64,000 nucleotides of DNA from Salinibacter pepae (GCF_947077775.1 NZ_CAMTTE010000001.1:3438501-3502500), one strand, 5' to 3'; shown: positions 28,784 to 43,592, counted from the first letter of the stretch. Made by a program: numbers and translations. The notes: a model not told the origin generated them from the letters alone.

Positions 28784-29339
28784 CGATAGGGAAAAGATGG
28801 CGCTTGAGAGTGACGCACGATCCCTACGAAAGTGCGGGGCGGAGGTTGGCCGGCGGGGGGCGTCTGAAGGGGACCGTCCATTCCCTCTGAGGTGAGGGCT
28901 GAAGGACCACCCACCCGGCCGTCCTTAATATCTGTTATTGCAGTAAACACGTCGTTCGCAGATTTCCGTGGCGGGGCAAAATCAAGGCGGTCGTTGAGGC
29001 GCATCCCGGTCCGTGTAGGACGAGAATGCTACCGGGCCGGTTACATATTGTACCAGTGCCGGACACGAATGAACGACGGGACGCCGCTCAGGACCCGGCA
29101 GAAGTGCAGGGGACCCCGCTACGTCCGCCGTTGAGCGGGCAAAATAGAGGGAATGTTATCTTTAAGACCATGAATTTGGTCGTTTGTAATCAAGTGGCAC
29201 GGTTCATGTGGCCATATGGGGGCGAAGATGCGGGCGACTCCGAGTGCGGCCGTGGCGACGGGCTTTCGGGCTTCGGAAGACGGTCTCCGCGGTGCGCGTT
29301 CCGCGACACGCGACCCTCTAACCACAACTACTTAACACC
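28784..29339. other. intergenic region upstream of the pilin-like gene
   Basis: 556 nt with no convincing gene. It separates the dehydratase (minus) from the first pilin-like gene (plus), so it holds two outward promoters. The last 200 nt contain AT-rich blocks (TTATCTTTAAGACC near 29157) that could be promoter elements, and the segment next to the pilin start is A/C-rich without a Shine-Dalgarno sequence. A long 5' untranslated leader for the pilin mRNA is possible. I recognised no riboswitch. Confidence 0.4.
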
Positions 29340-29741
29340 ATGGGACAGCAGCAGCTTTTACTTCTCGTGTTGAGCACCGTCATCGTCGGCCTGGCCACCG
29401 TGGCCGGCATCCAGGCCTTCAGCGAAAACCAGGCGCAAGCCACCCAGGATGCACTTGTGCAGCGAGGGACATCTCTAGCCTCAGACTTGCAAGGGGCGCT
29501 GGCTAAGCCTGCTCAGCTCGGTGGTGTTGACTCGAGTTCAACTGGCTCAAAGGCCGCTAGTGCGATTGGCCTCGACAACGCTACCGTCGATGTTGACGGA
29601 GCGAGTGGGCAAGATGCAACGTGTACAATTAATAGTGCGACTCAAATCACGTGTACTGCCTCCGAATCTCCCCAAAACGTACGGGTCAATCTTCAGGGAG
29701 ATAGCCTCGCCACTAACTTCAGTACCGACGGATTCGACTAA
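29340..29741 (+). CDS. leaderless pilin-like protein, probable major subunit
   Basis: 133 aa. The N-terminus MGQQQLLLLVLSTVIVGLAT is hydrophobic from residue 5 and passes into an amphipathic helix (FSENQAQATQDALVQRGTSL), the shape of the pilin alpha-1 helix. There is no positively charged leader, and no Glu at position 5 of a mature form. Cleavage after Gly2, if it happened, would leave a two-residue leader. The C-terminal domain is small and Ser/Thr/Asp-rich with a Cys pair about 10 residues apart (ATCTINSATQITCTA), perhaps a disulphide loop. It has its own terminator and visibly lower GC and different codon choice from its neighbours, consistent with a separately and strongly expressed, fast-evolving surface subunit (inference). 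The pilC and pilB genes follow. Confidence 0.75.
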   Translation: MGQQQLLLLVLSTVIVGLATVAGIQAFSENQAQATQDALVQRGTSLASDLQGALAKPAQLGGVDSSSTGSKAASAIGLDNATVDVDGASGQDATCTINSATQITCTASESPQNVRVNLQGDSLATNFSTDGFD

Positions 29742-29773
29742 GGCTGAAGTCGCTATTCATTCAGTTGGTTCTT

Positions 29774-29807
29774 GAGGCGGTCCTAGACAGGACCGCCTCA
29801 TTTTTTT
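29774..29807 (+). terminator. strong terminator after the pilin-like gene
   Basis: A perfect 11-bp stem GAGGCGGTCCT / AGGACCGCCTC with a 4-nt loop is followed by A and seven T. It lies 32 nt after the stop, so the pilin-like gene can be transcribed alone, as is common for major pilins. Confidence 0.93.
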
Positions 29808-29887
29808 CCTACTGCGTGCACAAAATAGACAGATACCGGCGTCGGAGCCCACCAATTCCGTCCATGTGTTCCTGGTAGGGACTGTAC

Positions 29888-30229
29888 TTGCGGCAACGTC
29901 CTACACCATGGTCAGTGATTTCTCGCATCAAGCCCATCAGCCAAGTCTTCCTCGCGTTAGTCGGCGGGTGGGCGTGGGGGCGATATCAATTCAAGCAAAA
30001 GCCAGCGACCGTTCCCTCAAATCTGACGCATGCGGCGCTGTGCGTGCTGCTCGTTGGTGCGATGGGCGTGGTGGGGTGCAGTCTCAAAGACCTCTCGACC
30101 GTCGAGGAGCGGCGGGACGCCCTGATCGAGGCGGTGGATCGGAATCGGTTCTCCCCTCGGCACTGGGGACAGGGGTTCCTCCACGTCCGGGACTCCGAGG
30201 TAATCGACCGAGCGCGCCGGGACCGGTAG
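29888..30229 (+). CDS. possible small lipoprotein
   Basis: A short frame with a lipobox-like sequence near the middle: LCVLLVGAMGVVGCSLKDLS, with the Cys as candidate lipidated residue. A short charged tail follows (STVEERRDALIEAVDRNRF). No good ATG precedes the signal-like segment. TTG at 29888 and GTG at 29915 are the only in-frame options, and the part before it has a second hydrophobic stretch. It may be a pilotin-like or hypothetical lipoprotein of the pilus locus, or chance. The rest of 29808-30554 shows no other gene. Confidence 0.35.
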   Translation: MRQRPTPWSVISRIKPISQVFLALVGGWAWGRYQFKQKPATVPSNLTHAALCVLLVGAMGVVGCSLKDLSTVEERRDALIEAVDRNRFSPRHWGQGFLHVRDSEVIDRARRDR

Positions 30230-30554
30230 GGCACCGCGTCCCCGCCCTGAGTTGAGCGACCGACGATTCCTGAGGTGGTCCGCACGGCCCGGGTGACAAG
30301 CCGCACATCCTCCTGGACCGAATTCCTTGTGCGGCCGGCGAAGAGGGCGACCGGAGAAGCAGGTAAAGATTCCGTTCATGGTGTCGATAATAAACAATGG
30401 CCCCGGACACATCAGGACGGAGAGCCCGCTAAGCGAAGGCCCGAATGCGGCACGGTGTATGTAGGGTGTAATCCGTAGGAGTAAAACAAAAACGTTCGGT
30501 GCTCTTACAGTTACACGAGAGGCATAGGAACAGACAAATCCAGCCCCTTCTGCC

Positions 30555-31910
30555 ATGGCGACTCGCGAATACCGGTTTCAGGGCGTGGCGGCCGGCGGCC
30601 AGTCGGTGCAGGGCACCGTCATGGCCTCCTCGAAGCGCAAGGCCCGCGAGAAGGTCGAGGACCTGTCCGACGAGCACGGGTTCAAGCCGTCGGACCTGAA
30701 GAAGCGCCGCACCTACTACTACAAGGTGCGCCACCCGAACGGCACCGTGAAGACGGGGGAGCAGAAGGCGTTCTCGGCCGGAGAGGTGGAGGAGGCCCTC
30801 GAAAACATGGGGCTGGAGGTCGTGAAGGTGCAGAAGAAGTGGTTCGACTTCGAGTTTTCGCCGCCGCAGGACGACCTGATTATGTTCGTGCGGCTGGCGG
30901 CGAACCTGCTCCGGGAGAACCTGCCGTTCGACGAGGTGCTGGAGATGCTGGTGAACGACGTGTCCTCGAAGAGCCTCCAGCAGGTCATCCGGGACCTCAA
31001 CTCCGACCTGAAGGGCGGCATGAACGCCGAAAAGGCCTTCAACAAGCACCGCGACAAGCTCGGCAAGTTTACGGCCTACATGCTGGGCATCGCCTCCAAG
31101 AGCGGGAACATGGCCGAGATCTACGAGGCCACGGCCCGCTTCCTGGAGCGGAAGGACGAGTTCAGCTCGCGGGTGCGGAGCGCCATGATCATGCCGGCGG
31201 TCACCACGGTCGCCATGATTGGGGCGATGGTCTGGTACATCTGGTACATCGTGCCGGCAACGGCGGGGCTCTTTGAAGGGATGGAGGTGACGATGCCGCC
31301 GCTCACGAGCTTCTCGCTCGACATGGCGGCCTGGCTGGACCAGTACTGGGTGTGGGTGCTGATCGGGACGGTCGGCCCGCTCCTGGCGTTCGTCGTGTGG
31401 GCCCGCACGGAGCAGGGGAAGTTTTACCTGCACAAGTACATGATCAAGATCCCGCTCATCGGAAAGCTGCTCCACAAGATTAACATCGAGATTTTCTGCC
31501 GGGTCTTCTCCATTCTCTACTCCGGGGCCGGCGACAACCTGCGGGTGATCCGGATTGCGGCCGAGGCCTGCGGCAACAAGTACATGGAGTACCGCATCCG
31601 GAACGTCACGATTCCGATGATGACGGCCCAGGGGGCGAGCCTCGTGCAGGCGCTCAAGGCGAGTGGGGTGTTCACCTCCATGGCCATCACGCGCTTCAAG
31701 AGCGGGGCCGAGACGGGGAGCGTGCGCGAGAGCGCCCGGCAGATGGCCGACTACTACGAGCAGGAGACCGAGCTGAGCCTCGACGCGGCGGTGGAGAGCA
31801 TCCAGACGGGCGTCTCCATCATCATCGCCCTCGGGGTGCTGTTCCTGACGATCCTCTCGGCGGAGATGGCCTTCATCCAGCCGTCGCAGGCCGACATGAT
31901 GGGCATGTAG
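30555..31910 (+). CDS. pilC: PilC/GspF-family inner-membrane platform protein
   Basis: 451 aa, platform of the pilus/secretion machine. Two T2SSF domains are visible, around 120-240 (FVRLAANLLRENLPFDEVLEML) and 320-445 (IEIFCRVFSILYSGAGDNLRV, then FKSGAETGSVRESARQMADYYE), each followed by hydrophobic helices. The N-terminus seems duplicated: YRFQGVAAGGQSVQGTVMAS and YYKVRHPNGTVKTGEQKAFS both resemble the short beta module that opens PilC/GspF once, which explains the extra length. It heads the cluster whose next gene is pilB. The start is ATG at 30555. It probably captures pilin subunits and couples to the ATPases. Confidence 0.93.
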   Translation: MATREYRFQGVAAGGQSVQGTVMASSKRKAREKVEDLSDEHGFKPSDLKKRRTYYYKVRHPNGTVKTGEQKAFSAGEVEEALENMGLEVVKVQKKWFDFEFSPPQDDLIMFVRLAANLLRENLPFDEVLEMLVNDVSSKSLQQVIRDLNSDLKGGMNAEKAFNKHRDKLGKFTAYMLGIASKSGNMAEIYEATARFLERKDEFSSRVRSAMIMPAVTTVAMIGAMVWYIWYIVPATAGLFEGMEVTMPPLTSFSLDMAAWLDQYWVWVLIGTVGPLLAFVVWARTEQGKFYLHKYMIKIPLIGKLLHKINIEIFCRVFSILYSGAGDNLRVIRIAAEACGNKYMEYRIRNVTIPMMTAQGASLVQALKASGVFTSMAITRFKSGAETGSVRESARQMADYYEQETELSLDAAVESIQTGVSIIIALGVLFLTILSAEMAFIQPSQADMMGM

Positions 31911-31967
31911 GCGGGGACGAACGCGGACGACTGAATTGACTGGGTTCTTAATTCTTGTGTTGACGCA

Positions 31968-34223
31968 GTGAGCAATTCGATCGACAGCGACCATTCAATC
32001 TCCTTGCGGGAGGCAGCAGAGGACGAGGCACCCTCGTCCGCGGCGAGCAGCGGGGCCGAGGGCCCGGGGGCGGACGCCCCAGATTCGTCGACGGGGGCGC
32101 CGCGCCCCGACGCCCTGACGCTGGGGCCGGTAGATTCCCCGCGCTTCGCGGTGCCGCCGTTCGCGTCGAGCGACCGGCCGCCCGTGTCTCGCCGGGGCAC
32201 AAAGGACCCATCGTCGGACGATCCGTCGCCCGAAGACCCCGATCTGGGCGGCGTCTCCTCCGAGCCGCACGGGGACGGGTCCGCGGCCCCGGAGCCCGAT
32301 CTCGACGGCGCGCCCGGGGAGGGGCCCCCCGTGGAGGGCGGCCCCGACCTGCCGAGCCCGGAGGAGGCGCTCGACGAGCTTGAGGCCGAGATTGACACCG
32401 AGCTCATCGACGAGGCCGCCTCGCGGATGGCCTCGGGCTCCTCGGTGGGCACGAACGACCGGGTGGTGGAGATGCTGCTGCGGCGCGGCGTCGTGGGCGT
32501 GGGGGCGGTGGAGGCCGCCCAGGCCCAGCGGGACGCGGAGACGCCGGACCTCGCCCTGTGGCGGGTCCTGGCGCAGCAGGACGGGGTGGACGAGGACGTC
32601 GTCTACGAACGCGCAGCCCGCATCTACGCGTTCTCGGTGGCGGACGTTGAATCCCAGGAGCCCGATCTCGACTTCGTCCGTGCGACGGTCGATGCCTTCT
32701 CCGAGGACCAGCAGGAACAGCTCTTCGAACTGGGACTCGTGCCCCACCACGTGCAGCGCGAAGGGGGGCGGAAGGTCATCCTCATTACCCACGACCCGAT
32801 GCGCCCCGAGGTGCACCGGGTGGCGCGGTCGCTCGACCTGCGCCGGTTTGAGCTGCAGTATGCGCCCAAGGCTGCCGTCAACGAGCTGCTGACGGAGGCC
32901 TTCCCGAAGGACAACGAGTACCTGGACCGGATCGACGAGGAGTCGACCGTCGACCTTGGGCAGAACTTCGAGGAGGAGGAAGACCTGGTCGACGAGGAGA
33001 AGCTGGAGGAGGAGATCAACCGGTCGACGCTCATCAACCTGTTCGAGGCGACCCTCGTGGAGGCGGTGCGGGAGGGGGCGTCCGACATCCACATTTACCC
33101 GAACTCTGAAAAAGAGGTCGAAATCCACTTCCGGGTCGACGGGCGCCTCAACCACTGGCACACGGAGGACCGCGTGCACCCGGAGGCCCTCCTGTCGGTG
33201 ATCAAGGACAACGCGATGAGCGTCGACCGCTTTGAGAGCGACGCCGCCCAGGACGGCTTCATTCAGCGCGACGTGGACGGGACCCGCATTCGGTACCGGG
33301 TGTCCATCATGCCGATTGCCAGCTCCAACCAGGACATCGACTCGGAAAGCGTCGTCATCCGGGTGCTGGACGACCGGAAGGTCATCACGAACCTCAACAA
33401 GCTGGGGCTGGGGCCGCGGGCGCTCGACCGGTTCGAGCACGCGATCAGCCAGCCCAACGGCATGGTCATCCTGACCGGGCCGACGGGCTCCGGCAAGAGC
33501 ACGACCCTGGTGGCCGCGCTGCACCGCGTGATTGGGCCGGGCGAGAACGTGCTCACGATTGAGGACCCGGTCGAGTACATCATCGAAGGGGCCCGGCAGA
33601 TCAAGCTCAGCGACAAGCTGCGGCTCAAAGACGCCCTCCGCTCCATCCTGCGCCACGACCCGGATACGGTGATGGTGGGAGAGATGCGGGACAAGGAGAC
33701 GGCCGAGCTCGCGATTAAGCTCGCCAACACGGGGCACCTCACGTTCTCGACGCTGCACACCAACGACGCGCCGAGCGCCGTGAGCCGCCTCTACAAGATG
33801 GAGATCGAGCCCTTCCTCATCGCCTACGCCATCAACCTGGTGGTGGCCCAGCGCCTGATCCGGACCCTCTGCCCGAACTGCAAGCAGGAGGTGACGAACC
33901 CGGACGCCGTGAAGCTGCGCCAGCTGGGCTTCTCGGAGGAGGAGATCAACAACGGCACGTTCTACGCCGCGGACGACAAGGGGGGCTGCGGCCAGTGCGG
34001 CGGCACGGGCTACGACGGGCGGCGCGCCATCGCGGAGGCCCTGTACCTCACCGAGCCGATCCGCCACATGATCGTCGAGGCGGAGGGCATCGTCGATGAA
34101 GGGGCCATCCGGCAGCACGCGGAGCAGGAGGACGGCATGCGGTCGCTTCAGGCGTCGGCCCGACAGTCCATTCTCAACGGGGAGACCTCGGTGGAGGAGA
34201 TGATCCGGGTGGTGTCCACGTAG
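31968..34223 (+). CDS. pilB: PilB/GspE-family assembly ATPase
   Basis: 751 aa from GTG at 31968. Residues 1 to about 145 are acidic, Ser/Pro-rich and probably disordered. An MshEN/GspE-N-like domain follows (VVEMLLRRGVVGVGAVEAAQ). The ATPase core has Walker A GPTGSGKST at 504-512 (Lys510), Asp box and Walker B (VMVGEMRDKET near 567) and the His box (TFSTLHTNDAPSAV). Two CxxC pairs (CPNCKQ near 634, CGQCGGTGYDGR near 675) form the zinc-binding C-domain of extension ATPases. It should power pilin polymerisation at the inner membrane with pilC. The long acidic head is unusual for the family. Confidence 0.96.
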   Translation: MSNSIDSDHSISLREAAEDEAPSSAASSGAEGPGADAPDSSTGAPRPDALTLGPVDSPRFAVPPFASSDRPPVSRRGTKDPSSDDPSPEDPDLGGVSSEPHGDGSAAPEPDLDGAPGEGPPVEGGPDLPSPEEALDELEAEIDTELIDEAASRMASGSSVGTNDRVVEMLLRRGVVGVGAVEAAQAQRDAETPDLALWRVLAQQDGVDEDVVYERAARIYAFSVADVESQEPDLDFVRATVDAFSEDQQEQLFELGLVPHHVQREGGRKVILITHDPMRPEVHRVARSLDLRRFELQYAPKAAVNELLTEAFPKDNEYLDRIDEESTVDLGQNFEEEEDLVDEEKLEEEINRSTLINLFEATLVEAVREGASDIHIYPNSEKEVEIHFRVDGRLNHWHTEDRVHPEALLSVIKDNAMSVDRFESDAAQDGFIQRDVDGTRIRYRVSIMPIASSNQDIDSESVVIRVLDDRKVITNLNKLGLGPRALDRFEHAISQPNGMVILTGPTGSGKSTTLVAALHRVIGPGENVLTIEDPVEYIIEGARQIKLSDKLRLKDALRSILRHDPDTVMVGEMRDKETAELAIKLANTGHLTFSTLHTNDAPSAVSRLYKMEIEPFLIAYAINLVVAQRLIRTLCPNCKQEVTNPDAVKLRQLGFSEEEINNGTFYAADDKGGCGQCGGTGYDGRRAIAEALYLTEPIRHMIVEAEGIVDEGAIRQHAEQEDGMRSLQASARQSILNGETSVEEMIRVVST

Positions 34224-34328
34224 GCCCCGGCTCGGCCCAGCCGTGCGTGCGGAGAGGCGGCGCCAGGGCCGCCGCGAGCAGAAGACGACGCGCATTCGAT
34301 ACCCTGTTCGACATGCAGATCGGTTGCC

Positions 34329-34841
34329 ATGCAACAGACGCTTCTGGCCCTTCTGGCGCTCATGATGGCCACGTTTTTCAACTTCAACCAGATGAAGACC
34401 GAGCTGCAGAAGCAGCGCCAGGTGGTCCGGTCGGAGATGGAGCAGATGGCCCTCGGGGTGGGGATGCAGACGATGGAGGTGATCCGGGCGCGGGCCTTCG
34501 ATGAGGCCACTATTGGCGGAACGGAAGACCGAATCACGGACCCCACGGAGTTCCGGGGCTCATTTGGGGGAGGCATGGATTGTCAGGCCTTCGGGGGCAG
34601 TCAAACCTGCGACTCGGTGGGGGACTTCCACGACATGACGCCCAGCACCGAGACCTTCAAGACGCCGGAGTTCGACATGGAGTTTACCGTTGAGGTGGAG
34701 GTCCGCTACCTGGATTCGAGCATGAATGTAGCGTCGGGCCCTACCTTCCGAAAAGAAGTCGTGGTTTACGTCCAGGATGCGGGGGACGACCCCTTCCTGG
34801 CCGAGCCCATCCGGTTTTCGGAGGTGCTGAGCTACTACTAG
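34329..34841 (+). CDS. leaderless pilin-like protein (minor subunit candidate)
   Basis: 170 aa. MQQTLLALLALMMATFFNFN begins directly with the hydrophobic stretch and continues into a charged helix (KTELQKQRQVVRSEMEQMAL), like a pilin alpha-1 helix without leader or Glu5. The remainder is beta-rich with two Cys 10 residues apart (around DCQAFGGSQTCD) and ends FSEVLSYY. It lies 105 nt after pilB and 52 nt before the next pilin-like gene. I recognise no named family. By position and architecture it is probably a pseudopilin or minor pilin. Confidence 0.7.
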   Translation: MQQTLLALLALMMATFFNFNQMKTELQKQRQVVRSEMEQMALGVGMQTMEVIRARAFDEATIGGTEDRITDPTEFRGSFGGGMDCQAFGGSQTCDSVGDFHDMTPSTETFKTPEFDMEFTVEVEVRYLDSSMNVASGPTFRKEVVVYVQDAGDDPFLAEPIRFSEVLSYY

Positions 34842-34893
34842 GTGCTCCCTTGATGCCCAACGCCCGACGCTTCTCACAGAGCGGACGCCCGCC

Positions 34894-35715
34894 ATGCAGT
34901 TTCTCTACGACAACTTGACGGCGACGGTCATCGCCTTGATGACGACCCTGATTCTGCTGTCGATCCAGTCCCGGGCGACCCAGAACAGCGTGGCGGAGGT
35001 GTCCCGGAATCGGATGGGGGAGCTCACGCAGACCTTCGCGTCGTGGCTGGAGCGGGACATTGAGCGAATGGGGGAGAATTTCGAGGAGGGCGAACGGGCT
35101 CCGTTCGACAACCCAGTATACACCGAGGGCAGTGGGGGCACCGACATTACCACCCAGTTCACGTTCTACCGCGACTCGACCGCGAGCAGCGGCGACGAGT
35201 ACCGAATTGCGACCCGCTACGAGGTGACCCAGAAGGGAACCCGCACGGTTGACGGCACCACGAAGCCCGTTTATCAACTGACCCGCACGAAGCGGCGAAA
35301 GGAGATGGGAGGGAGCTGGGAGTCGTGGTCTGGGTCGAAGGGCGTAAGTCCTTCTTCTCTCGGGTACTTTCAGATCGATCTACTCGACAAAGACGCGAGC
35401 CCGGTCCCAAACCCGAACGGGAATGCGGACCAGGTTCACAGCGTTCGGGTCCGGTTTTCCGTGGTGTCGCCGTTCCAGAACGCCCAGACGTTTCCGCGGG
35501 CGACCCACGTCGGGTCGGTCCTGCTCGTCCGGGATCAATCAGATGCCAGTGTGATCAACACCCCGTCGACCATGGGAGACTGCAAGGGCGGCGGGTGGAA
35601 GCAGTTGACGGATGGTACGGGCACGCCGTTCGGCTGCGCGGCGGCGTGTATGTACATGGCGTCGGGGGGACGCCAGGGGTCCGACAACTGCACGGGGGGC
35701 AAGGGGAGGCCCTAG
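34894..35715 (+). CDS. leaderless pilin-like protein with Cys-rich C-terminus
   Basis: 273 aa. Residues 1-8 (MQFLYDNL) precede a membrane helix (TATVIALMTTLILLS) and an amphipathic helix (RATQNSVAEVSRNRMGELTQ). No prepilin-type leader is present. The middle is beta-rich (TRYEVTQKGTRTVDGTTKPV). The C-terminal 40 residues hold a Cys/Gly motif, GDCKGGGWKQL with downstream CAAAC and NC, like the small Cys-Gly-Gly-Trp modules that end various exported proteins. Probably a larger minor pilin (PilW/GspJ-like size). It belongs to the run of three pilin-like genes. Confidence 0.7.
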   Translation: MQFLYDNLTATVIALMTTLILLSIQSRATQNSVAEVSRNRMGELTQTFASWLERDIERMGENFEEGERAPFDNPVYTEGSGGTDITTQFTFYRDSTASSGDEYRIATRYEVTQKGTRTVDGTTKPVYQLTRTKRRKEMGGSWESWSGSKGVSPSSLGYFQIDLLDKDASPVPNPNGNADQVHSVRVRFSVVSPFQNAQTFPRATHVGSVLLVRDQSDASVINTPSTMGDCKGGGWKQLTDGTGTPFGCAAACMYMASGGRQGSDNCTGGKGRP

Positions 35716-35871
35716 TGATAGGCATGCTCCGAGCAATCCGTTGCCCTTCCTGCTGAAGTCGCGCGAGGAAGGAGACGAAAGTGGAAGCACCCGAAGCACC
35801 GGTCGGCCGACGCCTCGGATCAGGCCGTAGCGCCATCAAACAAGCCTTCTTACAACCAACATCTGTTCGCC

Positions 35872-36873
35872 ATGGGAAAGTTCAGCTTGCTTCTTAGCTT
35901 ATCGGTCGTAGGTGCCGTGACCATTCTCGCATTCCAGGGCAATCAAACCTCCGTCGACACGAGAGAGCGCCAGTCGCTCCGTCAAGGGAAAGTGATCGCC
36001 CGCCAGATTGCCCGGTCCGGGTACAACTCGGTGCTGTCGGAGGCCCACAAGGCCGACGGCCCGGACAAGGAGGTCGGGCAGGTGGTGTCGGCGGTGGACA
36101 CGGTTCAGGGAGAGTACGAAGGGGGCACGTACAAGGCGTGGCTCAAAAAGATCAGTTCCTCGGCGTACACGGCCGTGTCGGTCAGCCGCTTCTCGGTGGC
36201 GGACTCGCTCGTGGAGTACCGGATCGGGGGGTACGCCAACAATACGATGAAGGCCCCGACGGTGGAGACGCCCAGCCAGCTGAACGTCACCTTCGAGCAG
36301 TCGATGGCCGGCTACTGCTCGGCGGTATACTTGAAGCGGGTGAAGCCGGGCACCAAGCCAAAAAATCAGCCGGATCCCGAAATGGTGTTTCCGCCGGGCA
36401 ACAACCGGAACGATGCCTCGTCGAGCTACGAGAAAACCATCGAGTCGGGCACGCGGCTCAACTTCATCCTGGCGGTGGACAAGAACTGCAGCCACGAAGG
36501 GGACGAGTCCGCCGACTTCCCCGACGACTACAATCACATCCAGCGGTCCTTCAAGCAGGACGTGGACAAGCTGAATACGATGCGGGAGGCGCCGTACGGC
36601 ATGGTGGAGGAAACGACCATCGGGGCGTCGGACGGCTGGCGAGTGTCCTTTGAGGACCAGCGGGTCTTTTCGGAGGCCCAGTTGTGGGACATCAAGGAAA
36701 ACGGGTACCCTGCCAACTCCTACTGGAGCAGAAGCCGAAAGACGTACGGCGGAAACGGCTGGCGAACGACCCCCGATGGCCTCCGCCACCTCAACGACTA
36801 TGGCGCCGTGCCGGATTTCAGTGACCAGGTTTTTAAGGTCGCGCTGACGGATCCGAACTCCGGATCGACGTAA
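35872..36873 (+). CDS. leaderless pilin-like protein, large
   Basis: 333 aa. MGKFSLLLSLSVVGAVTILA is a near-immediate hydrophobic helix followed by QGNQTSVDTRERQSLRQGKV and IARQIARSGYNSVLSEAH. The last resembles the helix after the membrane segment in GspK/PilX-like subunits. No leader or Glu5. The large soluble domain carries a single Cys pair (GYCSAVYLKR and KNCSHEG). The C-terminus is polar. This is the third of three adjacent pilin-like genes, and the size suggests a tip-type subunit (inference only). A strong hairpin about 170 nt downstream ends the pilC-pilB-pilin unit. Confidence 0.68.
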   Translation: MGKFSLLLSLSVVGAVTILAFQGNQTSVDTRERQSLRQGKVIARQIARSGYNSVLSEAHKADGPDKEVGQVVSAVDTVQGEYEGGTYKAWLKKISSSAYTAVSVSRFSVADSLVEYRIGGYANNTMKAPTVETPSQLNVTFEQSMAGYCSAVYLKRVKPGTKPKNQPDPEMVFPPGNNRNDASSSYEKTIESGTRLNFILAVDKNCSHEGDESADFPDDYNHIQRSFKQDVDKLNTMREAPYGMVEETTIGASDGWRVSFEDQRVFSEAQLWDIKENGYPANSYWSRSRKTYGGNGWRTTPDGLRHLNDYGAVPDFSDQVFKVALTDPNSGST

Positions 36874-37092: not shown

Positions 37093-37313
37093 ATCTCTTC
37101 CTGTGAAAGACTACCAATCTACGGCCGGCATCTGCCGCCCACCGACGCCGCTCTTCTCTGTCTGCGGGGGCTGTCCGTGCATCCCCGGTGGTTTTCGGCC
37201 CGCTGATCCGGCAGCAACGAGAAGCCCCGCCCGTGTGCGCCGCCTCGTCCCCCAAGCGAACAGTTCTGCGCGGGTGGCAAAACGGCTCGGCGTGCCTTTT
37301 GCGTCGTGTGATC

Positions 37314-38663
37314 ATGGAATTCCGTCCCCCCGAATCCTTCAGAACCCGCCCGACTCGTCCCGTGGCTCAAGACCCCCCGGAATTTATTTCGGCATCCCTG
37401 GACGCAGGAGACGAACAGAACGGTCGCTCGGGAACCGATTCCCGCCCTGCCCTTCCGGATGTCTGTGAGCAAATCATCACCTCCATCCCGGAGTCGCACC
37501 GGGGGCAACGGCGGCTCCGCTACCTGGCGGAGCAGACGGCCAAGCTCTCGCCCAAACGCGAACGGGCCCTCCGAGACCACGTCAACCAGTTCGTCCGGCG
37601 GACGCTGGAGCTGGACGCTAGCGACATGGACCTCGGGGGGCGGGCCTGTGACGGCAACGTGTGGTACCGGGTCGACGGGGAGAAGCGACGCGAGGACGAG
37701 TTCGGGGCGTACGACCCGCTAGAAACCGACATTCTCGTTCTCAACCTCCTCAACGAGCAGCAGACCCAGCAGCTTCTGGAAGCGGGGGCGACGGACTTTT
37801 CGTACCGGCTGGAGGACGTCACGGGCGAGGACGGCCGGCCGCGTCGGTTCCGGGCCACGGCGTACTCGGACTACGACCACGCGGCCCTCAACATGCGCGC
37901 CATCACCGACGAGGTGTTTGCGCTAGAGGACCTGGGCTTCCACGAGAAGATTCAGCAGGGCATGATGTTTCGGCACGTCCGGGACGGGCTGACCCTGATT
38001 ACGGGCGTCACGGGGTCGGGGAAAAGCACCACGCTCGACGCCATCATCGACGCGAACAACGAGGACTTCCCGGGCCACGTCGTCGTGATCGCCCAGCCGG
38101 TGGAGTACATGCACAAGCCGAAGCAGTGCATCGTGCGCCACCGCGAGGTGGGCAAGGACGTGGCGACCTTCAAGACCGGCATCACGCAGGCCCTGCGTCA
38201 GGACCCCGACATTGTGGTGATTGGGGAGATGCGGGACCCGGCGACGATCCAGGCCGCCCTTGAAATCACCGACTCGGGCCACAAGGTCTTCTCCACGCTC
38301 CACACCTCGTCGGCCATGGAGACCATCGACCGCATCGTGGCGGAGGTGCCCCCCGAGGAGCAGCAGCGCGTGCGGCACCGCCTCGCCGACGTGCTGCGGT
38401 GCGTCATCTCGCAGCAGCTGCTCCCCAAGGTTGGCGGCGGCCGCCAGATGGCGAAAGAGGTGCTCTGGGTGGACTCCTCCGCCCGCGCAGCGATCAAGAA
38501 TGACAACGTGGGCGAGGTCTACCAGATGATGTGGGAGGGCGGGAACCAGGGGCAAACCACCCTGGAGCAGGACCTGTACCGCCTCGTCCGGAAGAAAAAA
38601 ATCAAGCCCGAGCACGCGATGGACTACGCGAACAACAAGAAGCGCCTCCGTCGCCTGTTTTAG
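37314..38663 (+). CDS. pilT: PilT-like retraction ATPase
   Basis: 449 aa from ATG 37314; the frame is open further upstream but without family similarity. Walker A GVTGSGKSTTL at 231-241 (Lys237), the Asp-box region VVIAQPVEYM, Walker B IVVIGEMRDPATI and the His box VFSTLHTSSAMETIDRIV are all present. The zinc-binding Cys pairs of extension ATPases are missing, as in PilT/PilU. Residues before about 130 are an added acidic N-terminal part, and the C-terminus is Lys/Arg-rich. A retraction ATPase argues that the system is a dynamic type IV pilus rather than a type II secretion system. It starts a second unit with the PilMN, PilOP and PilQ genes. Confidence 0.92.
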   Translation: MEFRPPESFRTRPTRPVAQDPPEFISASLDAGDEQNGRSGTDSRPALPDVCEQIITSIPESHRGQRRLRYLAEQTAKLSPKRERALRDHVNQFVRRTLELDASDMDLGGRACDGNVWYRVDGEKRREDEFGAYDPLETDILVLNLLNEQQTQQLLEAGATDFSYRLEDVTGEDGRPRRFRATAYSDYDHAALNMRAITDEVFALEDLGFHEKIQQGMMFRHVRDGLTLITGVTGSGKSTTLDAIIDANNEDFPGHVVVIAQPVEYMHKPKQCIVRHREVGKDVATFKTGITQALRQDPDIVVIGEMRDPATIQAALEITDSGHKVFSTLHTSSAMETIDRIVAEVPPEEQQRVRHRLADVLRCVISQQLLPKVGGGRQMAKEVLWVDSSARAAIKNDNVGEVYQMMWEGGNQGQTTLEQDLYRLVRKKKIKPEHAMDYANNKKRLRRLF

Positions 38664-38729: not shown

Positions 38730-40937
38730 ATGAGCGCACACGCCCTTGGCATCATGGTGTCGGCGGACGCCCTTCATGCCGTCCTCCTGGAGCGCACGGA
38801 CGAGGAGACGAGCGTCCAGTTCCGGTGGTCGTCGGGCTCGTCGGGCGCACGCGGGGGGGACCTCCCCTTCGAGGAGCCCGGTGACATGACGCCCGACGTG
38901 GAGGAGGAGTCCGACGACGTTACCATTCAATTTGGCGATGACGAAGGGAGTGGCGGCGAGATGTTCATGGGGTCGGAATTTGACGACATCGACGGGGGCA
39001 GTGAGGCCCTTGGGGGGGACGAGGGGGGCGAGGCGTGGAACTTTCAGGTGGAGATCGACACCCTGCTCGACGAATGTGCCGAGCGGGGGTACGAAGACCC
39101 TGAGATCGCCTTTTGCAGCTCCACGTCTCAGATCGACGACGTGGAACTCCGGCTCCCGCCGGACGAGACCGACGCGGAGGAGGCCGAGGAGACCGAGCAC
39201 GGCCTTCCCCTCCCGGCCTCCCGCTCCACGCTCCTGGACATGCTGGCGGAGCAGTACGAGGGGGAGGCAGACGGCGAGCGCGTGGGCTTCGTGCCGATGC
39301 ACCGCACGGGCGACGGATACCAGCGCGTCCTGGCCCTTATCGCGCGGCCGGGCGGTCCGGTCCTGTCGACCCTCGATTCGATGCAGGACCAGACCCTGTC
39401 CCGCGCCCCGCAGACGCGTCTGCTGGACGCCGAGGTGTCCCTCTACCTCGGGCTGGCCCGCTCGGTGCTCCAGCTGCCGCCCGGCACGCCCGAAAAGACC
39501 ATCTTCGTGCGGTCCGGCACCGACGACACGCTCGTTCTCTTCATTGAGGGCAACACGCTGCGCCAGTCGGAGCACCTCCCCGAGCTCACGGCCGAGGACT
39601 CCGCCGAGACCATCTGCAGCCGCGTGCTTCTGCTGCAGGACGAGTACGGAATGGGGCAGGTGCAGCACCTTATGCTCGTCGCGGAGGAGGACGAGGAGGT
39701 GCTCGCCAGCGCGTTCAAGTCGTACTTCTCCACGGCGGAGCTCCACGTGCTCCGGTCGCACCTGCCCGGTGGGGACGACACCGACGCCGAGGCGTACGTG
39801 GGGGCCACCGGCGCGGCGCTTCGGCTGCTCGACGACGCCGCGTTTGCGCCGCATTTTCAGCCGGTCAACCTGCTCGCAAAGGAGTACGTCCCGAGCCGCC
39901 TGCGGCTCCCGGTGGGGTGGCCCGTGCCTGCAATGCTGACGCTCCTCGCCATCGCGACGCTCGGGTTCGTGTGGCTCTACTTCGTGAACGCGAGCACCAT
40001 CAGCGAGAAGCGCACGAAGCTTCGGGCCCTCGGGCAGAAGGTGAACCAGGTGGACCAGGAGGCGCTCCGGCGACGCATCGACAGCATGAAGGCCATGACG
40101 ACCGAATACGCCGCGGCGAACAAAACGATTGGCGGCCTCCTGCGGGGGAGCAACAAGTGGAGCCGCGGGCTCGCCACCGTTACGGGGCAGATGAATGACC
40201 TCCGCGGCCTCACCATCAACCAGTGGAGCCCGCAGTCCGGAACGGAAGTGACGATCCTTGGGCGGTCCAACGACCGGTCGAAGGTGGTCGAGCTGGCACA
40301 GCGAATGGACGGCCGCATCCTGGGGCTCACCTTTACGGAAACGCGGGACGTGTCGCTGTACGACTTTGAGCTCACGGTCCCCCTGGATACGACCAAGCCG
40401 GAGGCCATCGAGTACTGGCGGGAGCAGCGGGGCGAGCAGCTGGCCGCTGGAGAGGAGGGGGTGGAGATGGGGCCGGACGCCCCCGCGCCGGACTCATCCA
40501 CAACGGCCGGGCCGTCCCCCATGGCCCAGGCGAGCCCCGGCACGGGCGCGCCCGCCGCCCCGACGGGGGCGGAGTCGACCGGCGATGCGCAGGCCCGCCG
40601 CGATACACTCGACGCGTCGTCGGTCTGGACGGTCGTGGTGGCCTCGGTGCTCGAAAGCGCGGCGGCCCAGGAGGCGGCGCGGCGGTTTCGGAAGCAGCTC
40701 GATGGGGACTCCCACCCGGTGCAGGTGCAACAAAGCTCAGAAAATGGACGGTACCGGGTCGGCGTTGGCCGGTTCGTCTCGGTCCAGAATGCCCTCGCAA
40801 TGCTACAGGACATGAGCGGCACCCTCCCGGAGGGGGCGTGGCTGCTCAAAATGACGGGGGAGGACGCCGATCCCGCTTCCGCCGAGGCCGCCGCGTCGAC
40901 CTCGTCCGACCAACCGGACGCGGAACGCTCCGTCTGA
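38730..40937 (+). CDS. PilM-PilN-SPOR fusion protein
   Basis: 735 aa, apparently three modules. Residues 1 to about 390 look like a degenerate PilM/GspL-type actin-like cytoplasmic domain (MSAHALGIMVSADALHAVLL start, ARSVLQLPPGTPEKTIFVRS, and AYVGATGAALRLL as in PilM) with long acidic insertions. One membrane helix (about 399-421) and a PilN-like coiled-coil plus ferredoxin-like region (RTKLRALGQKVNQVDQEAL; LTINQWSPQSGTEVTILGRS) follow. After a Pro/Ala/Ser linker, residues about 631-709 form a SPOR-like domain (WTVVVASVLESAAAQEAARR, YRVGVGRFVSVQNALAML). PilM and PilN are normally separate proteins; SPOR domains bind denuded peptidoglycan. The gene lies 66 nt after pilT, and an 83-C tract starts 3 nt after the stop. 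Confidence 0.8.
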   Translation: MSAHALGIMVSADALHAVLLERTDEETSVQFRWSSGSSGARGGDLPFEEPGDMTPDVEEESDDVTIQFGDDEGSGGEMFMGSEFDDIDGGSEALGGDEGGEAWNFQVEIDTLLDECAERGYEDPEIAFCSSTSQIDDVELRLPPDETDAEEAEETEHGLPLPASRSTLLDMLAEQYEGEADGERVGFVPMHRTGDGYQRVLALIARPGGPVLSTLDSMQDQTLSRAPQTRLLDAEVSLYLGLARSVLQLPPGTPEKTIFVRSGTDDTLVLFIEGNTLRQSEHLPELTAEDSAETICSRVLLLQDEYGMGQVQHLMLVAEEDEEVLASAFKSYFSTAELHVLRSHLPGGDDTDAEAYVGATGAALRLLDDAAFAPHFQPVNLLAKEYVPSRLRLPVGWPVPAMLTLLAIATLGFVWLYFVNASTISEKRTKLRALGQKVNQVDQEALRRRIDSMKAMTTEYAAANKTIGGLLRGSNKWSRGLATVTGQMNDLRGLTINQWSPQSGTEVTILGRSNDRSKVVELAQRMDGRILGLTFTETRDVSLYDFELTVPLDTTKPEAIEYWREQRGEQLAAGEEGVEMGPDAPAPDSSTTAGPSPMAQASPGTGAPAAPTGAESTGDAQARRDTLDASSVWTVVVASVLESAAAQEAARRFRKQLDGDSHPVQVQQSSENGRYRVGVGRFVSVQNALAMLQDMSGTLPEGAWLLKMTGEDADPASAEAAASTSSDQPDAERSV

Positions 40938-40938
40938 C

Positions 40939-41024
<86 letters not shown>

Positions 41025-41061: not shown

Positions 41062-42054
41062 ATGTTCTGGCCCGACTCCAATCAGATTTTGCTCCTCACC
41101 TGCCTGGTCCTCGTGTGCGGGGCGGGCACGTACCTCACGTATTTTCACCAGCAGGACACGATTGCGTCGCTGGAGCAAAAGATTGAGGCGAAGAAGCAGG
41201 ATCAGGAAGAAATTCGGTCGCTCCGGGCGGATCGGGCCAATGCCGAATCGCGCCTCCGAACGGTTCGCCGCCGGTGGCGAACCCGATACAAGGTGGTGCC
41301 CGCGACCCTCTCGTCCCCGGACATCGTATCCTACCTCACCGAGCTGACGGAGACGGGGTTTCAGCAGTTCGACGTCACCTCGGCCGGACCGGAAGCGCGG
41401 GACGGGTACAGCGTCCACACCTTCGACGCGACGGGCAAGGCCTACTTTACGAATCTCTACCGGTTTGTCTGGACGATCGAAAACAACCGGCCGTTCTACC
41501 GCATCCGCGGCTTGAGTCTAAGCTACCTCGAAGAACGCGAGACCGACGAGGAGAGTGGACGCACGACGATGGACGTTCTCGTCTCGTTCGACATGGAGGT
41601 GGAAGCCATCTACGGCGCCGCTACGGATCTGCCCGCCCCCACATCTCCCGCCGACGGAGAAGGGACCGAACGGCTGCCCGTGGCGACACTGGAGGCCAGC
41701 CCGCCCCTTCCGTCCTCGGTCGTGCCCACCCCCGCGCCCGAAATCAATCCGTTCTACCCCCTCGTCTTCGAAAAGGTGCCGCCCAACCAGTACGATCGCC
41801 TGAACGTCGAGTCCGCACAGCTGCTCTCCATCGTGGACGGGAAGGCCGTCTTCCAGACCGATGAGGGGCTTCAGCAGGTTGGGGAGGGCGACCGGGTGTA
41901 CCTCGGGCGCATCGAAGAGGTAAGCCCGTCGGAGGGCCGGGTCGTCGCGCGGTTGAACCGAGGCGGGATCGTCGACCGCGTGGAGCGGACGCTGGGCACC
42001 GAGAGTCCCCTCCGGGTCCGCGGCACAGACGCTGCGCCTTCCACGAGCCCGTAG
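41062..42054 (+). CDS. PilO-PilP-like fusion protein
   Basis: 330 aa. A short cytoplasmic start, a membrane helix at about 8-27 (QILLLTCLVLVCGAG) and a coiled coil (IASLEQKIEAKKQDQEEIRS) precede a PilO-like periplasmic ferredoxin fold to about 190 (DIVSYLTELTETGFQQFDV). After a Pro-rich linker the last 95 or so residues resemble the PilP/GspC homology region (LLSIVDGKAVFQTDEG, VYLGRIEEVSPSEGRVVARL). PilO and PilP are normally separate; PilP normally is a lipoprotein that docks on the PilQ secretin. The fusion would link the inner-membrane alignment complex directly to the secretin. The start lies 38 nt after the poly-C tract. Confidence 0.78.
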   Translation: MFWPDSNQILLLTCLVLVCGAGTYLTYFHQQDTIASLEQKIEAKKQDQEEIRSLRADRANAESRLRTVRRRWRTRYKVVPATLSSPDIVSYLTELTETGFQQFDVTSAGPEARDGYSVHTFDATGKAYFTNLYRFVWTIENNRPFYRIRGLSLSYLEERETDEESGRTTMDVLVSFDMEVEAIYGAATDLPAPTSPADGEGTERLPVATLEASPPLPSSVVPTPAPEINPFYPLVFEKVPPNQYDRLNVESAQLLSIVDGKAVFQTDEGLQQVGEGDRVYLGRIEEVSPSEGRVVARLNRGGIVDRVERTLGTESPLRVRGTDAAPSTSP

Positions 42055-42172: not shown

Positions 42173-43592
42173 ATGACTTGCTCTTCTCGCCTCCGGTACG
42201 TGCTGTCGGTCCTCGTCGTTGTGGTGTGGGGGGAGGACTGGGCCTGCCGGCCGAGGCCCAGGAACGACCGGAGCGTCGCAACACCCGCACCAACATTTCC
42301 CCCGAGCTGCTGGTGTCCTTCGGCCAGGAGACCTCGCTGAGCCAGTTCATTGAGATCATCAACCCGATTTTCGAACGGGAGTTGGGCAAGCGGGTCGTCG
42401 ATCCGGAGGACCGGGCGGCGTCGATTGGCGTTTCGATCTCGGGGATGTATTACTTCGATGCCTTCCAGCGGGCCCTGGAGGCCAACGGACTGACGTACCG
42501 AGAAACCGACGATGTCTTCCTGGTGCAGGAGGCCGAGCCGGAGGAGAGGGGCGACCAGACGGAGGCCCCGGCCGAGTCTGGCGGGGAAGGGGAGGGCCGC
42601 CCGCCACCGTAGACACCCGCGAGATCCGGATCAACGCCATTCTCTTCAACCTCAACCTCACAAAGGTCCGCAACCGCGGGCTCCGGTGGGACGAGATCCT
42701 GGGTTCCACGCAGGGCGGCGGACAGGGCGGCGGACAGGGCGGCGGCGTTGGGGGCGGCACTGGAGGGGGCGGGACGGGCGGTGCCGGAGGGACGGGCGGC
42801 CAGAGACAGAACTATGCCATCCAGACGGAGAACTTGTTTGAGAGCGTCGACAACATTCTCCAGGCCCCCGATCAGATCTCTCTTTCTCAGTTCCGCCGGT
42901 TCCTTAATCTCGTGGAGCAGGACAACGTGGGGCGCACCGTCGCAAACCCGCAGGTGACCGTCCAGAGCGGAGAGCAGGGCGAGATTCAGATCGGGCAGGA
43001 CGTGCCGATCCAGACCACCGACTTTGCGGGGAATACCGTCACGGAGTTCTTCTCGACCGGCATCATCATCGACGTCACGCCCACGCTGCTCAGCCAGCCG
43101 GTGGCCGATACCTCCGGGGCGCCCGTGCTGGACTTTATTCACCTGAACGTGGACGTCGAGGATTCGAACAGTCAGCCCTCCGGCTCCGGGCCGATCATCA
43201 ACCGCAACCAGGCCAGCACCCAAATTCTTCTCCTCGACAACGAGGCCACCGCCATCGGGGGGCTCATCTCCACCCAGAAAACCACGAGGCGCAGTGGGAT
43301 CCCCATCTTGAAGGACCTGCCGGGCTGGGTCTTCGGGCTTCGGTACATCTTCGGATCGGAAACCACCAACGTGACGAAGCAGGAGCTTCTCATCGTGCTC
43401 CGGGCCGAGATTGTGGATCCGCTTCGGGCCCGGGCGAAGCAAGAGGGCGATCAGGAGCTCATCGACCAGCGGCGCCGGAACGCACAGAAGGCCCTCCGTC
43501 GGCTCGGCGAACGGTACGCCGAGGACGCGGAGTTTCCGGCTCCCGAAACGGAGGCACAGGGCACAGAGAAGGGATCGAACCCGGAGCGCTAG
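42173..43592 (+). pseudogene. pilQ: PilQ/GspD-family secretin, interrupted by two frameshifts
   Basis: The product would be about 473 aa. It starts at ATG 42173 with a signal peptide (MTCSSRLRYVLSVLVVVVWG). The frame then changes by -1 at a run of six G (42228-42233) to reach LGLPAEAQERPERRN, the expected cleavage site (AEA-QE). The second frame runs through an N-domain (ISPELLVSFGQETSLSQFIE) and stops at 42612. The secretin domain continues in a third frame from about 42590 (TREIRINAILFNLNLTKVR, a Gly-rich loop, VANPQVTVQSGEQGEIQIGQ, GIPILKDLPGWVFGLRYIF, KQELLIVLRAEIV). Both shifts are what loss of one base would cause, each at a G-rich run. It is a short secretin with no AMIN domain. Sequencing error, phase variation or true decay are all possible. 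Confidence 0.82.

Follow-up and report, generated by a model that had tools for sequence, protein, structure and literature searches.

A Type IV Pilus-like Locus of Salinibacter pepae

The window analysed here, a 64,000-nt stretch of the genome of the salt-loving bacterium Salinibacter pepae (GCF_947077775.1, NZ_CAMTTE010000001.1:3438501-3502500), carries an operon for a type IV pilus-like machine in which four putative pilins, designated P1 to P4, begin directly at the hydrophobic helix. An earlier note on this DNA had drawn attention to four such proteins beside pilC, pilB and pilT, and all four open reading frames (ORFs) were recovered at the same positions. The genome comprises three contigs and is 99.97% complete; S. 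altiplanensis is a relative from the same genus. The features are as follows, with positions counted from the first letter of the window.

29340..29741, + strand: P1, leaderless major pilin (MGQQQLLLLVL...), 133 aa (ORF, class-wide alignment, AlphaFold2, VIA)
30555..31910, + strand: pilC-like inner-membrane platform (PF00482 T2SSF, E = 4e-30)
31968..34223, + strand: pilB-like assembly ATPase (PF00437 T2SSE, E = 2e-98)
34329..34841, + strand: P2, putative leaderless minor pilin, 170 aa, PilV/GspI-like (position and N-terminal pattern)
34894..35715, + strand: P3, leaderless minor pilin of the GspJ/PilW type, 273 aa (AlphaFold2, Foldseek, VIA)
35872..36873, + strand: P4, putative leaderless minor pilin, GspK/PilX/ComZ-like, 333 aa (profile match to ComZ; conserved MG(K/R) start)
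37188..38663, + strand: pilT-like retraction ATPase (PF00437, E = 1.5e-34)
38730..40937, + strand: pilM/pilN-like fusion with a C-terminal SPOR-like domain (position; sub-threshold matches)
41062..42054, + strand: pilO(/P)-like inner-membrane protein (position; sub-threshold matches)
42174..43592, + strand: pilQ-like secretin, frame broken in the assembly (PF00263, E = 1e-32)

This order, with the major pilin, pilC, pilB, three minor pilins, pilT, pilM/N-like, pilO/P-like and pilQ, is that of a conserved operon. Of the features that mark membership of the type IVa pilus (T4aP) group, the assembly ATPase, the inner-membrane platform, the secretin and the PilT-type ATPase are present. The best NCBIfam match of the PilT-like ATPase is TIGR01420 (PilT/PilU) with 306 bits, just below the cut-off of 319. 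In the pilM/pilN-like protein, the SPOR match has E = 8.5e-4 and, at 20.1 bits, falls short of the cut-off of 21. Its match to PilN is likewise below threshold; a homologue gives PilN with E = 0.017. The pilO-like protein gives a GspM-like match with E = 0.008, and its homologue a sub-threshold match to PilO.

The leaderless pattern is far wider than this one locus and extends to hundreds of relatives. Among 195 class genomes, 134 have a relative of the pilC-like gene, and in 128 of them it is a strong one. The leaderless pilin family was found in 128 of the 394 genomes of a phylum sample and in 342 matched contig stretches.

Leaderless Start of the Major Pilin

None of the four window ORFs is preceded by an in-frame ATG, GTG or TTG, and in the case of P1 an in-frame stop (29319-29321) lies six codons 5′ of the ATG. 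The earlier note had also reported that the four proteins lack a charged leader, a Gly-Phe cleavage site and Glu5. All three are indeed lacking, with the corrections that P4 carries Lys3 and P3 carries Asp6. A class III signal peptide with a Gly-1 cleavage site was not encountered in P1-P4.

Since standard leaders might be encoded upstream in related strains, as the earlier note had pointed out, the homologues were searched for them. No upstream start is present in 110 of 114 P1 homologues; the in-frame stop lies at a median distance of four codons, and fewer than six open codons precede the start in 86 of the 114. These stops and the missing starts leave no room for the coding of an ordinary leader. 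The start codon alternates between ATG, GTG and TTG at an identical position, which identifies it as the true initiation codon. The first eight codons have 81 spellings among the 114 genes, so selection must act on the peptide. The pattern is not a matter of chance, the start position being conserved across several lineages with 35–70% GC.

In a comparison of 20 operon regions, almost every one had P1 located 5′ of pilC, and the homology began at residue 1. An alignment of 29 sequences reveals an invariant Met1, conservation of at least 90% from Gly2 to Leu8 and a variable C-terminal half. The start MGQQQLLL is found in Rhodothermia, Balneolia, Ignavibacteria, KSB1, Calditrichota and Neomarinimicrobiota. 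The set of 114 genes was partly picked by this very peptide, so its N-terminal identity is inflated, while its upstream stops are unaffected; the percent identity of MGQQQLLL in loci L096-L175, all picked by it, is biased. The P1 homologues of the operon regions and of the 29-sequence alignment, which like the phylum sample were not chosen by the peptide, also start MGQQQLLL. An acidic residue at positions 2-12 occurs in a single gene of the 114, and Glu5 is absent from the major pilin. The residue equivalent to Glu5 is Leu8 by helix register (see below) and Gln5 by counting.

The S. pepae genome possesses two further MGQQQ pilin genes (L208:1501-1953 and L209:1501-1971), one of them on the small contig C2; no pil operon was seen beside them within these short loci. 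In contrast to MGQQQ, a second pilin paralogue (L092:15056-15424, L119:6520-6882) begins MANKE(I/L) and carries Glu as its fifth residue. One genome (G032) has the leaderless pilus operon in two copies.

Minor Pilins

Homologues of P2, P3 and P4 were gathered (34, 30 and 22, respectively), and they keep the same start position with ATG/GTG/TTG swaps. An upstream start is absent in 30 of 33 P2, 29 of 30 P3 and 21 of 22 P4 homologues. Position 6 is acidic in about 12 of 33 P2 and 14 of 30 P3 homologues. Hence, an acidic residue near position 5 is missing from P1 and P4, but not from every minor pilin. Gly2 is present in 19 of 22 P4 homologues, while P2 and P3 are mostly devoid of it.

Pfam and NCBIfam scans of P1-P4 returned nothing useful. 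The P4 profile, compared with the PDB, matched Thermus ComZ (6qvi, E = 0.0016), a minor pilin of a DNA-uptake pilus; this match and the place in the operon suggest that P4 is a pilin. The P2 profile gave chance matches only in the PDB, and P2 is a putative pilin by its place and N-terminal pattern. The loci L090, L091, L092 and L093 lack P2-P4 between pilB and pilT and have there a small protein which, by eye, looks like a cyclic-nucleotide-binding domain.

Predicted Folds and Helix Register

The structures predicted for P1 and P3 both resemble pilins, the possibility of a different fold having been raised in the earlier note as the other way in which its proposal could fail. The AlphaFold2 model of P1 (95 sequences; pLDDT, the predicted local distance difference test score, 91) consists of a helix at 2-55, after which come a second, small helix and five strands. 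After VIA re-alignment the top four matches are all type IV pilins (Z of 7.6, 7.3, 6.6 and 5.2), and the next, unrelated chain has 4.2. The best one is 5vxx, a Neisseria pilus, with Z 7.6 over 116 residues. In the model of P3 a helix at 2-57 is combined with seven strands. Foldseek ranks TTHA1219, a pilin, and the pseudopilin pair EpsI:EpsJ highest. With VIA, eight entries, all pilins or pseudopilins (TTHA1219, GspJ-type), reach Z 9-12 before a drop to 3.8. Thus, a pilin lollipop fold is predicted for both proteins, P3 being the stronger case.

The single PDB match of the P1 profile is PilE1 (E = 0.24), with P1 9-55 aligned to PilE1 6-52. Aligned by hhalign with canonical pilins of the same class, P1 6-53 corresponds to mature residues 3-50 (E = 7.5e-4). 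The two registers agree in that residue n equals mature n-3. This places Leu8 at Glu5 and means that P1 is extended by about three residues relative to the mature N-terminus of canonical pilins.

Absence of the Prepilin Peptidase

The earlier note had found no pilD-like gene in the locus, and this absence extends to the whole genome. The A24 peptidase family PF01478 gives no match there, and a profile built from the PilDs of the class itself gives nothing at E ≤ 10. For PF06750, the N-domain of PilD, the sole match is insignificant (E = 0.6), and N_methyl (PF07963) has none. A control search for the A24 peptidase was positive in 12 of 14 genomes.

Among the 128 genomes of the phylum sample with leaderless pilins, 113 are without an A24 peptidase and 15 have one above the cut-off. 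Within the class, canonical N_methyl pilins are found in 14 of 15 PilD genomes vs. 8 of 180 others (Fisher p = 6e-15), and in several PilD genomes PilD is near a second, divergent T2SSF gene. PilD thus follows a separate canonical system rather than the leaderless one. Two genomes with PilD (G017 and G046, loci L092 and L093) keep their MGQQQ pilins leaderless.

Proposed Mechanism

We propose that the operon specifies a machine similar to the type IVa pilus, which uses its pilins as primary translation products and does not require a prepilin peptidase, and assign this reading a probability of roughly 0.8. The suggestion in the earlier note of a type IV filament system variant that works without processing gains support from the lack of upstream starts in related genomes, the predicted folds of P1 and P3 and the absence of PilD from the genome. 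Translation would begin at the hydrophobic alpha-1 helix. This helix would remain uncleaved and serve as a signal anchor, its N-terminus facing the cytoplasm. A subunit inserted as a plain signal anchor would be assembly-ready at once, with removal of the initiator Met at most, and PilB and PilC could extract and polymerise it directly. Methionine aminopeptidase is expected to remove Met when the second residue is Gly, as in P1 and P4.

The invariant Gln3-Gln4-Gln5 would lie at the site of the N-methyl-Phe1/Glu5 pair and may supply the core contact otherwise made by Glu5 and the N-terminal amine. P2, P3 and P4, which would escape processing as well, may together make up a priming or tip complex of the GspI/J/K (TTHA1219/ComZ) kind. 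As Asp or Glu is common at residue 6 of P2 and P3, the tip may have kept some of the acidic-residue logic. PilT suggests retraction. The resemblance of P2-P3-P4 to a GspI/J/K or TTHA1219/ComZ tip makes DNA uptake a reasonable predicted function, and twitching is perhaps another. On a broader scale, it is probable that a branch of type IV pilus machines over several classes and phyla, from Rhodothermia, Balneolia and Ignavibacteria to KSB1, Calditrichota and Neomarinimicrobiota, has dispensed with prepilin processing, a conserved GlnGlnGln in the filament core replacing N-methyl-Phe1 and Glu5.

Several points weigh against this proposal. Foldseek alone gave nothing below E 0.9 for P1 in the PDB; the pilin match came from a second look with VIA, at middling Z values (5.2-7.6), and the hhalign probability is only 26% despite E = 7.5e-4. 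The PilM/N/O assignments are based mostly on position. An A24 peptidase is encoded in 7 of 20 locus-tested genomes, mostly of KSB1, Calditrichota and Neomarinimicrobiota types, so the picture outside the Bacteroidota sample is mixed and independence of A24 is less certain in those lineages. Finally, the pilQ frame is broken near ~42230 and ~42600, apparently by one-base indels in G-rich runs, for which reason the machine of this strain could be inactive. The break looks like either a sequencing error or a strain-specific inactivation. The relatives appear intact, with a longer single ORF in 14 of 14 checked.

Alternative Explanations

The pilin-like proteins might never form a surface filament, either staying anchored in the inner membrane or building a short periplasmic pseudopilus that drives secretion. 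The closeness of P3 to GspJ structures of the type II secretion system (T2SS) speaks for this. We nevertheless consider it unlikely, given the PilT-like ATPase, the completeness of the operon and the conservation of the major pilin, which has paralogues; moreover, leaderless proteins retain no leader that could block assembly.

Somewhat less probable is the replacement of PilD by a non-A24 membrane peptidase which trims P1 and P4 by two residues, the MG remnant. The near-invariant Gly2 of P1, shared by most P4 homologues, recalls Gly-1 of canonical prepilins, and the peptidase searches covered known families only. It is known, however, that methionine aminopeptidase prefers such a second residue, which explains Gly2 equally well. 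The helix register puts Gly2 at -2, not at -1, and no conserved membrane protein lacking an assigned role was seen in the operon. In addition, a peptidase cutting after MG cannot serve P2 and P3, most of which have no Gly2. The option of cleavage after only MG or M, offered by the earlier note, therefore holds for the loss of Met expected in P1 and P4, whereas an MG cut cannot apply to the other two.

That a divergent PilD was overlooked by the profiles is very improbable. Although absence by search is never absolute, PF01478 does detect divergent PilDs in 15 members of the class as well as in 12 of 14 controls, the class-specific profile found no match, and the substrates carry no leader for cutting; this explanation was rejected.

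The least probable possibility, that standard leaders were missed behind a non-ATG start or a mis-called gene, was likewise rejected: a few P1 homologues do have 10-31 open codons upstream, but by eye these longer stretches share no prepilin-like leader. The nearby stops rule it out for most homologues, and the start-codon swaps and the general lack of upstream starts in P2-P4 speak against it as well.

Processing by signal peptidase I was also considered and dismissed. There is no conserved A-x-A, relatives having, e.g., VVAINTF after the helix. In P1, conservation is highest over the first eight residues, which would not be expected of a signal peptide that is thrown away and makes such processing unlikely.

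Comparison with Known Systems

The type IVa pilus of Neisseria and Pseudomonas (PilB-PilC-PilT-PilMNOP-PilQ with PilE/PilA) has in common with the leaderless locus the ATPases, platform, secretin, operon logic and predicted pilin lollipop fold. The leaderless locus differs in that a class III leader and a prepilin peptidase are missing and the major pilin is devoid of Glu5; N-methyl-Phe1 is therefore presumably absent too. The leader of known systems remains cytoplasmic and is cut off by PilD before assembly (PMC4471445, PMC8546353), leader removal being described as essential for assembly (PMC8546353). Reviews define the superfamily by the class III signal peptide and the prepilin peptidase, and Nanoarchaeota is the sole phylum that they list as being without the peptidase (PMC4471445). 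Text searches of open-access PMC turned up no account of leaderless type IV pilins.

In Thermus thermophilus, TTHA1219 is structurally closest to P3, and ComZ is matched by the P4 profile; here, in contrast, P3 and P4 are leaderless and lie between pilB and pilT in one operon. With T2SS the locus shares the GspJ-like fold of P3 and a P2-P3-P4 order that parallels GspI, GspJ and GspK. It differs in its PilT-like ATPase, its leaderless proteins and the lack of a prepilin peptidase (GspO) or processed pseudopilins. The T2SS-like system CHU_3191-3202 of Cytophaga hutchinsonii is a Bacteroidota type IV filament machine branching with T4aP (PMC6668835), but its locus has a Peptidase_A24 protein, CHU_3197 (PMC5553014). 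MSHA loci also have no peptidase gene, yet their genomes encode one in another system (PMC6668835), whereas here the peptidase is missing genome-wide.

If the proposed mechanism is correct, a widespread natural system operates without leader or peptidase, and extrusion as such does not require processing. Direct tests of what Glu5, Phe1 and the leader do would become possible. It would also be explained why surveys based on the prepilin motif overlook pili in these lineages.

A minor feature of the locus is a run of 83 consecutive C at 40941-41023, between the pilM/N-like and pilO-like genes, where a near relative (L076) has ~6 C. The run may be hypermutable, or else it is an artefact of the assembly.

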